From contig JAIESQ010000041.1 of assembly GCA_019745975.1 (NCBI GenBank), positions 1-64,000 on the forward strand: a DNA stretch of 64,000 nucleotides. Direction: 5' to 3'. The translations under genes and the position numbers were made by a program. This DNA comes from Pirellulales bacterium (lineage in GTDB: Bacteria; Planctomycetota; Planctomycetia; Pirellulales; JAEUIK01). This document shows, piece after piece, positions 32,033 through 39,244 of the stretch (within the stretch, counting starts at the first letter, position 1; every line of letters starts with the position of its first letter). The notes beneath the pieces were generated by a model, which had not been told where the DNA came from, did no database searches, and saw only the letters and a program-made list of their open reading frames with translations.

Positions 32033-32110
32033 CCAGGCTGAAGTTGATTGTGAGGCCTGCGCGACCGGTGGACTTTCAGCCGCAAACGATCGAGAAGTCC
32101 CGCGCGCAGG

Positions 32111-32157
32111 CAGTGGCTCGAACAGGTTCATGCGCTGTCCCACCGAGAGCGTTCCAC
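32111..32157. repeat. 47-bp direct repeat, copy 1
   Basis: GTGGCTCGAACAGGTTCATG then CACCGAGAGCGTTCC. It is repeated at 35748-35794 with 43 of 47 bases identical and in the same orientation. Each copy lies 70-100 bases upstream of a promoter for a MauE/DUF1573-type gene. Confidence 0.85.
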
Positions 32158-32224
32158 TCATGCCAGTCGACGCCCCAAGCGCTATGCAATCTACCGAAAG
32201 ACCCTCGGAGAATCCAAATTCATC

Positions 32225-32254
32225 TTGACAATCCTTTCACCATGTTTCTACTAT
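32225..32254 (+). promoter_or_regulatory. Sigma70-like promoter of cassette 1
   Basis: TTGACA (32225-32230), 18-base spacer, TACTAT (32249-32254). It precedes the MauE/DUF1573 gene at 32355 by about 100 bases. A 19-bp tandem repeat lies in the region that would be transcribed first. Confidence 0.55.
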
Positions 32255-32354: not shown

Positions 32355-33314
32355 ATGGCGCGTGAAATGAGTTTGCGTCAACCCTGGCGATGGTCGCCTG
32401 GCCGCGCTGGGAACCAGGGCGTGCGCGTCGGGTTGGGGCTTCTATTGCTATGCGCCGCGGCGCTCAAGGGGCACGCGCTGGTGGTCGTAACCGGCGCTTC
32501 GCGCGGCCTGCTGATTTCGCCCGGGCCGGGTGCTCTGTTGATTGCGGCCGAATTGAGCCTGGGGCTGTGGCTGCTGAGTGGCCTTGCCCGACAAGGTAGC
32601 TGGTGGGTCGCACTGGTCGGTTTTGCCGGTCTGTCTTGTGTGTCGTTGACCAAGGCGTTGGCGGGGGTCGCCTCGTGCGGCTGCTTCGGGGTGCTGGCGG
32701 TCAGCCCGTGGGTCGTTTTCGGATTGGATGTCGCGGCGGTGGCGTCGCTGATCGCGTTTCGCTCGCCTGCCGCGGTAGGAGTCGCAGCAGGAATCAACGT
32801 CGCGCCGCGTCAATCGCCGCGCGAACTGCTGGCGTGGGCGGCGTGGCCGGCGAGCATCGCGTGCCTGGCAGTTGCCGGCCTCGCGATCTGGGGACTCCTC
32901 GTATTTGGTTCCTGGCGGACGATGCTCTTGTCGGTTCAAGGATATACCTTGATGCCGGAGTCGTTCGTGAAATCGGTCGGCGAAATCCCAGCCGGCCAGC
33001 GCCGCAACGTGGTCTGCGAGTTGACGAATCTGAAATCCCACGAGGTGACCGTCCTGGGGGCCAAGACCACATGCGGGCGTTTTGTACCCGCCAACCTGCC
33101 CGTGCGGATCGGTCCCCACGAAAAGGGGGCCGTGGTGTTCCAGGCCCTGGCTTCCGAGGCCCTGGATTCCGAAGCCAGCGTGGGGCAGCCGTTCGCGTCG
33201 GCGGCGCTGCTCTATTTGGATGGCCCTGGTCGGCCGATTGTCTTGGTCCTGAAAGGCACAATCTCAGCGTCGAAACGCGGCTCGAATGGACGACGCGACC
33301 GCGACAACGAGTAA
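32355..33314 (+). CDS. MauE-like membrane protein fused to a DUF1573-like domain
   Basis: 319 residues. Residues ~20-145 form four membrane helices of the MauE/DoxX redox type, with the telltale ALAGVASCGCFGVLAVSPW (MauE proteins carry such Cys pairs and are needed for folding of the disulfide-rich methylamine dehydrogenase small subunit). A fifth helix follows near residue 175, then a beta-sandwich domain like DUF1573: VGEIPAGQRRNVVCELTNLK and TTCGRFVPANLPVRIGP. The Cys-Gly-Cys of typical DUF1573 domains is reduced to one Cys. An ATG at 32367 is an alternative start. First gene of cassette 1; the Cys-rich peptide gene follows. Role in oxidative folding of that peptide is inference. Confidence 0.8.
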   Translation: MAREMSLRQPWRWSPGRAGNQGVRVGLGLLLLCAAALKGHALVVVTGASRGLLISPGPGALLIAAELSLGLWLLSGLARQGSWWVALVGFAGLSCVSLTKALAGVASCGCFGVLAVSPWVVFGLDVAAVASLIAFRSPAAVGVAAGINVAPRQSPRELLAWAAWPASIACLAVAGLAIWGLLVFGSWRTMLLSVQGYTLMPESFVKSVGEIPAGQRRNVVCELTNLKSHEVTVLGAKTTCGRFVPANLPVRIGPHEKGAVVFQALASEALDSEASVGQPFASAALLYLDGPGRPIVLVLKGTISASKRGSNGRRDRDNE

Positions 33315-33325
33315 AGAATCAAATC

Positions 33326-33363
33326 TTGTTTCGTGTTTCCTGGCCTGTATTATCGATATCGAT
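33326..33363 (+). promoter_or_regulatory. Promoter with perfect palindrome at the start site, before Cys-rich peptide 1
   Basis: TTGTTT (33326-33331), 16-base spacer, TATTAT (33348-33353), overlapped by the perfect 12-bp palindrome ATCGATATCGAT (33352-33363). The palindrome sits where a repressor could block initiation. The gene's ribosome-binding site follows directly. Confidence 0.6.
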
Positions 33364-33377
33364 TCAAGGAGACGAAC

Positions 33378-33677
33378 ATGGCGACGATGAAGTCGACGAC
33401 GGCAAAATCGACGGCAGCAAGAACTGGTTGGAATCTGCGGGCCCAGGCGCTCGTGGCCGTGGGGATCGTGATGTTGGCCATCGGGGTTGTCCTCTGCACG
33501 CCGGACATTGCCTATGCGGAGACTGGTGTTACGTTCTGTGAAGATACACTTCCGTGTGTTACTGATCCCATCATTATGGGTTGTGCCGATCCAAGCGTTG
33601 GCGGAACCGCCGGCCTGACGTGCAACACTGGCTGCACCTGCACGACTACCAATAGGAAGTGTCGTTGCGTCAAGTAA
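33378..33677 (+). CDS. Exported Cys-rich peptide 1
   Basis: 99 residues from ATG 33378, with AAGGAG 8 bases upstream, a strong site that settles the start. A long signal peptide (residues ~1-48) ends TPDIAYA, so cleavage would leave about 51 residues beginning ETGVTFC. The mature part has eight cysteines in the pattern C-x5-C-x8-C-x12-C-x3-C-x-C-x6-C-x-C and ends CRCVK. The peptide at 36586 shares the same pattern, the TGVT start, DPSxGGxAGLxC and CxCVx end. No known family is recognised; knottin-like folding is possible. It lies between the MauE/DUF1573 gene and the anchored proteins. Confidence 0.8.
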   Translation: MATMKSTTAKSTAARTGWNLRAQALVAVGIVMLAIGVVLCTPDIAYAETGVTFCEDTLPCVTDPIIMGCADPSVGGTAGLTCNTGCTCTTTNRKCRCVK

Positions 33678-33696
33678 CGAACCGCAATCACGAAGG

Positions 33697-34707
33697 GTGC
33701 CTGCCGTGCATCAAGAGCTAGGCGATCCGTGTACGCCGCGCCGAGTGCTGCCCCGCGCTGGGGGCCTGATCGCGGTCGCCCTGCCCTTGGCGCTCGGGCC
33801 TAGTTTTGCGGCAGGGGCAGTATCGAAGGAGGAGTTTTTGGCCCAGTACGAACCGGACGCCGCGCGGCTCCAGGAGTTCTACGGCAATGTCCGCCTCAGC
33901 GCTCGCGTCGCGAACTCCGGGTGGCCGCAGGAAGCCCACAATATCCAGCAGGAGATCGTGCTTCGCGGCGGCCGCGGTTCGCTGCGCTTGGATCGTACGA
34001 CCAGCCAGGGCGAGCGGCCGGGGACCGCCGCGTGGGTGGCCACGCCCACGCGCTCGTTCGCCGCGTTCGCGCGCCCCGGCCAATCGTCGTACTCGCTGGA
34101 AGACCTGAGCGGGCAGTACGCCGGCGCCGTGGCGGGGATGCGGCTGCGATGTCCGTTGACGGCGGCCCCGTACGGAATTTTGGAGGATCGGATCACTGAC
34201 TTTATCAGGTTCGAAGACCTGACAGTGACCCGGCTGGAACGGACCACCGACGAGCAAGGCGCGGCCCTGGCCAAGCTCCACTACGAGCGACACAGCGAGG
34301 ACGATGGCCAGCGGTACGAACAGTACGGCTGGCTGTCGTTCTACCCCGACCGCTGTTGGGCGCTCCGCGAATACTCTTTTGGAGCGAAGGATCCCAACAA
34401 AACACGCATCCGGGCGCTGTTGGACTACGCCGGAGACCAAGAGGGCGTGCCGCTCTTGAAGCGGGCCGAATACTGGTACGAGAGCGGCCCGCCGCCGCGC
34501 AAGCGTTCGCTGGTGCAAACGTTTGAAGTGACCGAACTGGTTCCGGGCCCGGTGCCGGAGAAGGAATTCACCCTGGCGGCTTTCGGCCTTCCCGAGGTCG
34601 AACAGGCGGCGCCAAGCAAGCTGCCGTATGTGATCGTTTTCCTTGGCCTCCTGGCGCTGGTCGCGGGGATCATGCTGCGCCGCAGGGTGCTGGCGCGCCG
34701 CGCGTAG
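33697..34707 (+). CDS. Exported, C-terminally anchored protein, unknown family (copy 1)
   Basis: 336 residues from GTG 33697 (GTG 33706 has the better-placed GAAGGG). Signal peptide to about residue 42 (LIAVALPLALGPSFAAGAVS). The mature part starts KEEFLAQYEPDAARLQEFYG and is beta-rich, with RGGRGSLRLDRTTSQG, SYSLEDLSGQYAGAVAGM and FYPDRCWALREYSFGAKDP, loosely like lipid-binding LolA-type folds. Near the C-terminus a membrane helix (LPYVIVFLGLLALVAGIMLR) and basic RRRVLARRA tail anchor it with the body outside. It starts 19 bases after the Cys-rich peptide stop. Copies at 34740 and 37045. Function unknown. Confidence 0.75.
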   Translation: MPAVHQELGDPCTPRRVLPRAGGLIAVALPLALGPSFAAGAVSKEEFLAQYEPDAARLQEFYGNVRLSARVANSGWPQEAHNIQQEIVLRGGRGSLRLDRTTSQGERPGTAAWVATPTRSFAAFARPGQSSYSLEDLSGQYAGAVAGMRLRCPLTAAPYGILEDRITDFIRFEDLTVTRLERTTDEQGAALAKLHYERHSEDDGQRYEQYGWLSFYPDRCWALREYSFGAKDPNKTRIRALLDYAGDQEGVPLLKRAEYWYESGPPPRKRSLVQTFEVTELVPGPVPEKEFTLAAFGLPEVEQAAPSKLPYVIVFLGLLALVAGIMLRRRVLARRA

Positions 34708-34739
34708 CGGCGTCGGGTTGCACGTTGATTAGGTGCGCC

Positions 34740-35744
34740 ATGAACGAGCACCGACGGTTACGCGGGCGCGGTTTTACGCTTGTCGAACTGCTGGTGGTAA
34801 TCGGCGTCATCGGCATCCTGGTGGCGCTGACCTTGCCCGACATGGCCACGGGCGCTGGCCTGAAAGAGGAGTTCTTGGCGCAGTACGAGCCGAGCGCCGC
34901 CAAGCTCCAAGAGTTCTACAGCAACCTGCGCATCAAGGCCGTTTTGACAAAGGCGGGGTGGCCGCAGGAAACCCACAATATCCAGCAGGAGATCGTGCTT
35001 CGCGGCGGCCGCGGAGCGCTGCGCGTGGATCGTACGACCAGCCAGGGCAAGCGGCCGGGAACCTCTGTCTGGGTGGCCACGCCCAAGCGTTCATTCGACC
35101 TGTTCGCGCGCCCCGGCCAGTCGTCGTACTCGCTGGAAGACTTGAGCGGGCAGTACGCCGGCGCCGTGGCGGGGATGCGGTTAAGTTGCCCCTTGATGGC
35201 GGGCCCATACGGCTTCTTGGAGGTGCGGATTGTCGACTTTATCAAGCGCGACGATCTGACCGTGACCCAACTGGAACCGTTGCGCGACGAACAAGGCGCG
35301 GCGCTGATCAAGCTGCACTACGCGCGACACTACGAGTTCCGCGGCCAGCCGGTCGAGCAGCATGGCTGGTGGACGTTCTACCCCGACCGCTGTTGGGCGC
35401 TCCGCGAGTACTCTTGGGGAGGGAAAGACCCGAACGTGAGGCGCAACCGGGCACGGCTGGACTACGCGGGAGACCAGGACGGCGTGCCACTTTTGAAGCG
35501 CGCCGAGTACTGGGACGAGCGCGGCCCGCCGCCACTCAAACGGTTTCTCGTGCAAACGTTTGAGGTGACCGAACTCGTTCCTGGGCCCGTGCCGGAGAAG
35601 GAATTCAGCCTGGCGGCGTTTGGCCTCCCCGAGGTCGAGCAGTCGGCGCCGAGCAAGCTGCCGTATGTGATCGTTTTCCTTGGCCTCCTGGCGCTGGTCG
35701 GCGGGATCATGCTGCGCCGCTGGGCAGTGGCGCGCCGCGCGTAG
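34740..35744 (+). CDS. Chimeric paralogue: prepilin leader fused to the anchored protein (copy 2)
   Basis: 334 residues from ATG 34740. Residues 1-35 are a type IV prepilin leader and helix start (RGRGFTLVELLVVIGVIGIL), then at KEEFLAQYEPSAAKLQEFYS it becomes a close copy of the protein at 33697, including the C-terminal helix and RRWAVARRA tail. The bases around the start (GGTGCGCCATGAACGAGCAC) are identical to those at the DUF1559 gene start at 38101-38120, so the leader was probably copied from such a gene. The normal long pilin helix is cut short, so the leader may simply act as a prepilin-peptidase-processed membrane signal. It starts 32 bases after copy 1. Confidence 0.8.
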   Translation: MNEHRRLRGRGFTLVELLVVIGVIGILVALTLPDMATGAGLKEEFLAQYEPSAAKLQEFYSNLRIKAVLTKAGWPQETHNIQQEIVLRGGRGALRVDRTTSQGKRPGTSVWVATPKRSFDLFARPGQSSYSLEDLSGQYAGAVAGMRLSCPLMAGPYGFLEVRIVDFIKRDDLTVTQLEPLRDEQGAALIKLHYARHYEFRGQPVEQHGWWTFYPDRCWALREYSWGGKDPNVRRNRARLDYAGDQDGVPLLKRAEYWDERGPPPLKRFLVQTFEVTELVPGPVPEKEFSLAAFGLPEVEQSAPSKLPYVIVFLGLLALVGGIMLRRWAVARRA

Positions 35745-35747
35745 AGA

Positions 35748-35794
35748 GTGGCTCGAACAGGTTCATGGGTTGTTCCACCGAGAGCGTTCCGCTC
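35748..35794. repeat. 47-bp direct repeat, copy 2
   Basis: Matches 32111-32157 in 43 of 47 bases. It begins 4 bases after the stop of the chimeric copy 2 and marks the upstream boundary of cassette 2. Confidence 0.85.
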
Positions 35795-35888: not shown

Positions 35889-35920
35889 TTGACAAGCCCC
35901 CCCCCCCCCGTTTGTAATAT
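35889..35920 (+). promoter_or_regulatory. Promoter with 13-C tract in its spacer (cassette 2)
   Basis: TTGACA (35889-35894) and TAATAT (35915-35920) are 20 bases apart; 35897-35909 is a run of 13 C. A 17-base spacer is optimal, so as read the promoter would be weak, and loss of about three C would bring it to optimum. Similar poly-C or poly-G spacers drive phase variation of Neisseria opc and porA. The gene start (GTG 35966) is 46 bases downstream. Confidence 0.7.
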
Positions 35921-35965: not shown

Positions 35966-36514
35966 GTGTCGGCAAGAGCCTACGTGTCCACAACCGATCC
36001 GCAAGTCGCGCTAGCTGCTGGCGAAAGACATGTGCTGCCTCGCGCCACAAGCAGTTCGCGTTTTCATGTTCGCTGGCACTGGTTACGCCATGTGCTTCTG
36101 GCGGCGCTGGTGACCGCACTCTTATTAGCCGGCTTTGCAGTCTGGGGATACTTGGCATTCGGTTCGTTCCGTGGCTTGCACTGCTACGCGAAAGGCATGG
36201 CGGTGATGCCGGATAGCAGTTTCATTCAGTTCGGCGAAGTAAAAGCTGGCAGTACGCTGCGTGTGCCGTTCGTGCTGACAAATCTGCGGTCTCAAGCGGT
36301 GACCGTCATAGGCGCGGACTCTACGTGTAGCTGCCTCCGCCCCTTAAACGCGCCGCTAGTTTTGTCACCGCGCGCGAACCAGACGCTCGTGTTGGAGCTG
36401 TCGACATCCGCGAACAGCGCAGGACAGGCATTCAGCATGGACGCGACGCTCTACCTGGACTGCGACTCAGCACCGGTCATTGTGACCGTCGGCGGCCACC
36501 TTTCGTCGCATTGA
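35966..36514 (+). CDS. Membrane-anchored DUF1573-like protein
   Basis: 182 residues from GTG 35966. One membrane helix at about residues 46-68 (HVLLAALVTALLLAGFAVWG), then FIQFGEVKAGSTLRVPFVLT and STCSCLRPLNAPLVLSP, the DUF1573 pattern with the Cys-x-Cys intact. It aligns with the C-terminal half of the protein at 32355 but lacks the MauE-like helices. It is first in cassette 2, followed 71 bases later by Cys-rich peptide 2. Transcription probably starts at the poly-C promoter upstream. It may be a redox or binding partner for the peptide (inference). Confidence 0.75.
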   Translation: MSARAYVSTTDPQVALAAGERHVLPRATSSSRFHVRWHWLRHVLLAALVTALLLAGFAVWGYLAFGSFRGLHCYAKGMAVMPDSSFIQFGEVKAGSTLRVPFVLTNLRSQAVTVIGADSTCSCLRPLNAPLVLSPRANQTLVLELSTSANSAGQAFSMDATLYLDCDSAPVIVTVGGHLSSH

Positions 36515-38107: not shown

Positions 38108-39244
38108 ATGAACGAGCACCGCATGAACGAGTACCGTCGGTCACGCCGGCACGGTTTTACGATCGTCGAACTTCTGGTGGTGATCGGCATCATCGGAATC
38201 TTGCTGGCGTTGACGCTGCCTGCCGTGCAACACGCGCGCGAGTCGGGTCGGCGGCTCGGCTGCGCGAACAATTTGCATCAATTGGGCATCGGGCTGCAGA
38301 GTTACCATGCGAGCGTTGGCACGCTACCGCCGGCCGTGATCTGGTGGCCCAAAGGCGAGCCGCTCGGGTTCGGTGTGTATCCGATCGGCGTACTCGATCG
38401 CGTGCAAATGGGAGTCATGTCGAACCGGCAACCCGACACAATTTATGCTAACTGGGTGATTCTGTTGTTGCCCTATGTGGATCAGGGGGCTTTGCAAAGA
38501 CAGTTCAACTTTCAGCGGCCGATTTCTGACGCGTCGAACGCCGCCGCGCGGTCGACACAATTGCCAAGCGTTAAATGCCCGAGCGATCCCTACAATGATG
38601 AATTGTTCGAGCGCGGGGCAGCCCACGGTGTTACGAACAATTTCTATGCGCGTGGGAATTACGCGATCAACGTGGGCCCGGATGGCAATTGCCTCAACGG
38701 CGGCGCGCTGCCATGCGTGCAGGGGTTTTTCATCCGCGGATCAAACCTGCTGGTCGACAACGACCAGGTGTGGGGGAGTGGCGTCGCCGGCGTAAACAAG
38801 TCGTTCGGTTTCAATTCAATCCCCGACGGCTTGGCCAACACCGTGGCCTTGGATGAGATCCGCGCTGGGATCGATCCGCTCGATCCACGCGGCGTGTGGG
38901 CGCTCGGGCAGGTCGGCTCCAGCATGATCGCGCGGCATGGCCTCCTCGACGACGCTGGCGGACCCAACAACACGAGCCCTTATTCGGAAGAATTCATCGG
39001 CTGCGCCGCGCTGACCGAAAAACTCGGTGTCGCCGCCTTGGTCGCGGAGGGGATGGGTTGTTACCCTCGCTCGCCAGATCGAGAAGGCAATATTCAAGCG
39101 GGCGCGCGGAGCTTGCATGCCGGCGGTGTCCATGTGTTGCTGTGCGACGCTTCGACCCAGTTCGTGCGAAACGAGGTCGATGCGCACGTGTGGCACGCGA
39201 TTCACACGCGCGACCGCCGGGAGCAAGTCGGCGCCGCGTGGTAG
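38108..39244 (+). CDS. DUF1559 prepilin-like protein
   Basis: 378 residues from ATG 38108. N-terminal prepilin signal RRHGFTIVELLVVIGIIGIL with Glu+5, then the full pilin helix leading to CANNLHQLGIGLQSYHASVG, the DUF1559 signature. The C-terminal part keeps ARSLHAGGVHVLLCDASTQF, the counterpart of the usual H-x9-DG motif with Ala in place of Gly. DUF1559 proteins are expanded in planctomycetes and probably form pseudopilus-like envelope structures. Its 5' end is the likely source of the leader in the chimera at 34740. Follows cassette 2 across a REP pair. Confidence 0.9.
   Translation: MNEHRMNEYRRSRRHGFTIVELLVVIGIIGILLALTLPAVQHARESGRRLGCANNLHQLGIGLQSYHASVGTLPPAVIWWPKGEPLGFGVYPIGVLDRVQMGVMSNRQPDTIYANWVILLLPYVDQGALQRQFNFQRPISDASNAAARSTQLPSVKCPSDPYNDELFERGAAHGVTNNFYARGNYAINVGPDGNCLNGGALPCVQGFFIRGSNLLVDNDQVWGSGVAGVNKSFGFNSIPDGLANTVALDEIRAGIDPLDPRGVWALGQVGSSMIARHGLLDDAGGPNNTSPYSEEFIGCAALTEKLGVAALVAEGMGCYPRSPDREGNIQAGARSLHAGGVHVLLCDASTQFVRNEVDAHVWHAIHTRDRREQVGAAW

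Follow-up and report, generated by a model that had tools for sequence, protein, structure and literature searches.

The 64,000-nucleotide (nt) stretch analysed here (the window) comes from contig JAIESQ010000041.1 of a Pirellulales bacterium (assembly GCA_019745975.1) and contains two neighbouring gene cassettes for cysteine-rich (Cys) exported peptides. Here, we focus on the element in front of the second cassette, in which TTGACA and TAATAT lie 20 bases apart and enclose a run of exactly 13 C residues (C13; table 1). An earlier reading of the letters alone (the sequence-only reading) had proposed it as a candidate phase-variable promoter, and the coordinates of its parts are as that reading described them. 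The element is very likely a promoter. It is intergenic and is followed by three collinear genes, encoding a DUF1573 protein, a Cys-rich exported peptide and a protein of about 320 amino acids (aa) with a C-terminal helix; the earlier claim that it drives the second Cys-peptide cassette is thus right in gene order and orientation. The start of the DUF1573 gene is bounded by an in-frame TAA at 35915 and a GTG at 35966, and because of this TAA the GTG is the first usual start codon, placing the gene 45 nt downstream of a recognisable −35 and −10. Within the 20-nt spacer, C13 exceeds the homopolymer of at least 8 that is expected in promoters of the opc/porA/fetA type. N-terminal hydrophobic export segments are predicted for all three downstream proteins.

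Long C runs are rare in this DNA. All other C or G runs in the window are of 7 or fewer, and under a first-order Markov model the window is expected to hold 0.0006 runs of at least 13 C, and the genome, with both strands counted, about 0.12. Pattern searches across the 6.98-Mb genome, which is assembled in 204 contigs, return no more than two runs of at least 12 C, the C13 site and one of C17. The latter occupies positions 63–79 at the end of another contig (G000:C55, L013); its opposite strand reads TTGACG followed directly by G17, with no clear −10 after it. A simple promoter scanner misses the C13 site, since its spacer limit is 18, and a plasmid collection holds no match to the locus.

Variation in tract length is visible among the promoters of relatives. 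In one of them (G197), three promoter copies in front of three genes carry C7, C9 and C14, giving spacers of 13, 15 and 20 nt, while about 96 nt outside the tract are common to the copies apart from two singleton substitutions; tract length therefore changes faster than its flanks. Paralogues in a second genome (G130) carry C13 and C14. The strongest single result is a locus in a third genome (G034), which was picked by protein profile and not by promoter. Searches of the genus and family with the Cys-peptides matched the source genome alone, and a profile built from the two peptides found a homologue in one other genome among about 396 in the order, G034, which belongs to a different family. 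There, TTGACA-ACGGC-G12-CGG-TATAAT, again with a spacer of 20, lies 96 nt before an operon with the order DUF1573, Cys-peptide and 337-aa protein. Similar promoters precede MauE/DUF1573 proteins, Cys-rich peptides and transmembrane (TM) proteins like those of the window in six further genomes, which belong to other families (G376, G328, G229, G138, G202 and G384). In two of these (L056 in G138 and L095 in G229) the operons contain a Cys-peptide, a C39-peptidase/rhodanese protein and MauE, a combination that suggests peptide processing and disulfide formation.

Such promoters are found in front of a particular kind of gene. In six genomes, all 11 TTGAC-polyC sites, some of them same-genome paralogues and so not independent, are located 33–128 nt upstream of a gene with an export signal, and 7 of the 11 genes encode PEP-CTERM proteins. 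Ordinary runs of C9 or more in the same genomes precede export-signal genes in 4 of 40 cases (Fisher p 2.9e-8 for secreted proteins, p 2e-5 for PEP-CTERM), a contrast that is partly one of promoter against non-promoter, as many control runs do not precede a gene. The 11/11 remains high against the window's own baseline, in which 12 of 41 long open reading frames have export-like N-termini. Orthologues of the G130 PEP-CTERM genes within that genus mostly lack a tract.

The architecture also recurs across the order. A search of up to 396 genomes of the order for TTGAC-N0-4-C9-N0-10-TAnnnT finds 46 matches, spread over 25 genomes, compared with 9, in 6 genomes, when the pattern is reversed; the p of 4e-7 for this difference is optimistic, because some matches are overlapping readings of a single site. 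By counts, the poly-G version is less clear: its 22 matches are spread over 18 genomes, and the control has 35 matches in 10 genomes, 24 of these in one genome. TTGACCCC-type sites probably arise by chance and were excluded from later sets. A stricter pattern run over 84,980 species genomes returns 51 stretches, about 15 of which are from Planctomycetota by record title, a phylum that probably makes up a few per cent of the collection. Among the others are host-associated groups, Helicobacter and Pasteurellaceae for instance, in which promoters of the slippage kind are to be expected. Promoters with C11 spacers also precede a PEP-CTERM gene in a Bryobacterales genome (L105) and a Cys-rich small protein in a Thermoanaerobaculia genome (L148); judged from these sequences, the link between promoter and cargo may extend past Planctomycetota to Acidobacteria-related genomes.

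In Neisseria porA, fetA and opc, an unstable homopolymer is located between the −10 and the −35 (PMC2791445), the architecture to which the sequence-only reading, naming opc and porA, had likened the site, and aptly. Expression from fetA is high at 9–10C, falls to an intermediate level at 11C and is low both at 8C and at 12–14C (PMC13293289). As at those loci, where the homopolymer alters the spacer and the expression of exported proteins (PMC2791445, PMC13293289, PMC5320596), the C13 tract stands between −35 and −10. The host differs, being an environmental planctomycete and not a host-restricted pathogen, as does the cargo, a DUF1573/Cys-peptide operon; the switching proposed here is a prediction from sequence.

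We assign a probability of about 0.72 to the reading that the C13 site is a slipped-strand phase-variable promoter of the opc/porA/fetA type, controlled by tract length. Recurrence before secreted genes above control, the G034 cassette and the tract-length differences in G197 all support it. The C13 run would lie within the −35/−10 spacer of a sigma70-type promoter driving the DUF1573/Cys-peptide/TM-protein operon. Slipped-strand mispairing at replication would add or remove C residues and shift the spacer from 20 nt at C13 to 17–18 nt at C10–C11, such that RNA polymerase binding and operon expression would differ reversibly from cell to cell. By analogy, the assembled C13 state is probably a low one, with expression rising as the tract shortens to C10–C11; at C11 the spacer would equal that of cassette 1, which is 18. 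We infer that the tract slips in this organism and that expression follows its length. Planctomycetes in which such promoters precede genes for exported proteins probably raise and lower the expression of these genes through random changes in tract length, in the way that meningococcus varies its surface proteins.

Several observations weigh against this reading. TAATAT matches the consensus at only four of six positions, and the genus of the source is represented by one genome, the tract variation described above being that of relatives' promoters. No tract is present in most of the cassette homologues that were found independently of their promoters (G040, G143 twice, G057, G323 and G301), nor in cassette 1 of the window, and the feature is therefore recurrent and not universal. 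In relatives, the 30 sites with a single −10 have spacers mostly of 19–20 and 15, not 17, and the 17-nt optimum may not be theirs.

An unlikely but coherent alternative is that the promoter is real and its long spacer essentially static, the C run having grown by neutral slippage within a constant weak promoter under no selection for switching. No part of a promoter is less constrained than its spacer, the C13 promoter and many related ones are assembled at 19–21 nt, and cassette 1 works without a tract. A static spacer would not account, however, for the way these promoters cluster at genes for secreted proteins, PEP-CTERM proteins and Cys-peptides (11/11 versus 4/40) or for the independent G12 of the G034 cassette, and instability of a C13 tract is expected whatever its role, as in the C7, C9 and C14 copies. 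There is little to recommend the view that promoter activity is set by the G/C tract itself, acting as a structural element such as an A-like helix or as a binding site, for instance for a transcription factor, and that changes in its length are incidental: C and G tracts are found at the same place and usually start at a fixed position, 0–3 nt past TTGACA, but the two versions differ as a site on one strand, and lengths of 7–17 vary freely among near-identical promoters. A chance pairing of TTGACA and TAATAT on either side of a homopolymer, or an assembly miscount, with the true promoter elsewhere, is the least probable account, for although the assembly is a draft in 204 contigs whose second long C run sits at the end of a contig, and exact homopolymer counts are error-prone, the contig runs on for 35 kb and 28 kb to either side of the site and the architecture recurs in many independent assemblies, the homologous cassette included.

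The promoters of relatives add a complication. Across 51 planctomycete homopolymer promoters, assembled spacers cluster at 14–16 and 19–21, with few at 17–18; among the 30 single −10 sites the shortage at 17–18 is not significant (4/30, p 0.2). A pair of −10 elements that overlap at a distance of 5 nt (TAnnnTAnnnT) is present in 19 of the 51 promoters versus 3 of 80 control sites (p 8e-7), a comparison that needs a better background because few of the control sites are likely to be true promoters. At the window site there is only one −10; the twin elements of many planctomycete relatives are a further difference from Neisseria fetA, porA and opc. It is a tentative proposal, and on balance a doubtful one, that contingency promoters of this kind are lineage-wide in Planctomycetota, with C or G tracts after TTGACA tuning PEP-CTERM and Cys-peptide genes and, in many of them, slippage registering either of two −10 elements to give a cyclic rather than a simple on/off switch.

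In the open-access literature searched, no report of such promoters was found that joins phase variation with Planctomycetes, PEP-CTERM or homopolymeric tracts. As far as that search extends, this kind of slippage promoter is known, and the phylum and the cargo are new. Slippage-driven promoter switching is known mainly in host-adapted pathogens, where it is explained by immune escape. If it holds for PEP-CTERM proteins and Cys-peptide operons in free-living planctomycetes, surface and secreted traits would be subject to bet-hedging also where there is no immune system, possibly directed at phage, grazers or changing surfaces. The upstream motif of PEP-CTERM genes is reported from Proteobacteria only (Haft 2006, PMC1569441). 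Relatives of the window promoter resemble this PrsK/PrsR sigma54 motif in preceding PEP-CTERM genes (PMC1569441), but the planctomycete promoter is sigma70-like with a homopolymer. Homopolymer promoters are a possible form of regulation for planctomycete PEP-CTERM genes, which are without the proteobacterial sigma54 motif.

Table 1. Features of the two cassettes and their putative promoters in the window.
Feature	Position	Strand	Basis or comparison
Cassette-1 promoter, TTGACA-N18-TACTAT, without tract	32225..32254	+	closest internal comparison
Cassette-1 MauE-DUF1573 fusion, 319 aa	32355..33314	+	
Cassette-1 Cys-rich exported peptide	33381..33677	+	
60-nt remnant of lnt 5′ end	35735..35794	+	88% identical to 32100-32159
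−35 element TTGACA (6/6)	35889..35894	+	sequence reading
20-nt promoter spacer, AG-C13-GTTTG	35895..35914	+	sequence reading
C13 homopolymer, proposed slippage tract	35897..35909	+	run count
−10 element TAATAT, 4/6 to TATAAT, key A2 and T6 present	35915..35920	+	
Cassette-2 DUF1573 protein, first gene, 182 aa, one N-terminal TM helix, without the MauE part of cassette 1	35966..36514	+	Pfam DUF1573 8.4e-06
Cassette-2 Cys-rich exported peptide, 89 aa	36586..36855	+	51% identity to cassette-1 peptide; hydrophobic N-terminus
323-aa protein, N-terminal signal and C-terminal TM helix	37045..38016	+	44 and 39% identity to two cassette-1 paralogues

The first gene of cassette 2 passes the gathering cut-off of DUF1573 (PF07610) marginally (26.2 against 26.1), and the Cys-peptides of the window match no Pfam or NCBIfam family. 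The sequence-only reading had called the cassette product a plausible surface trait: export signals are indeed predicted, and it is from these signals that a product acting at or outside the cell surface would follow. Cassette 1 spans 32355–35744 and joins a MauE-like membrane domain to DUF1573, as does BT_3928 of the nearest curated MauE/DUF1573 family (NF045576); with a score of 29.9 against a cut-off of 250, the cassette-1 protein falls outside that family.

A 60-nt remnant of lnt stands before both cassettes (88% identity), and cassette and upstream region have therefore probably been duplicated together; the lnt fragment between the cassettes marks a tandem duplication with a spacing of about 3.6 kb. 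It is this remnant that firmly indicates duplication. The case for homology between the two promoters in the window is only suggestive: their best local alignment pairs promoter with promoter, but 231 of 500 shuffles score equally high. A separate 106-nt repeat (82%) at 34739–34844 and 38122–38227 gives the second paralogue of about 330 aa (34740–35744) a prepilin-type N-terminus like that of a DUF1559 gene, an apparent swap of leaders between gene families.
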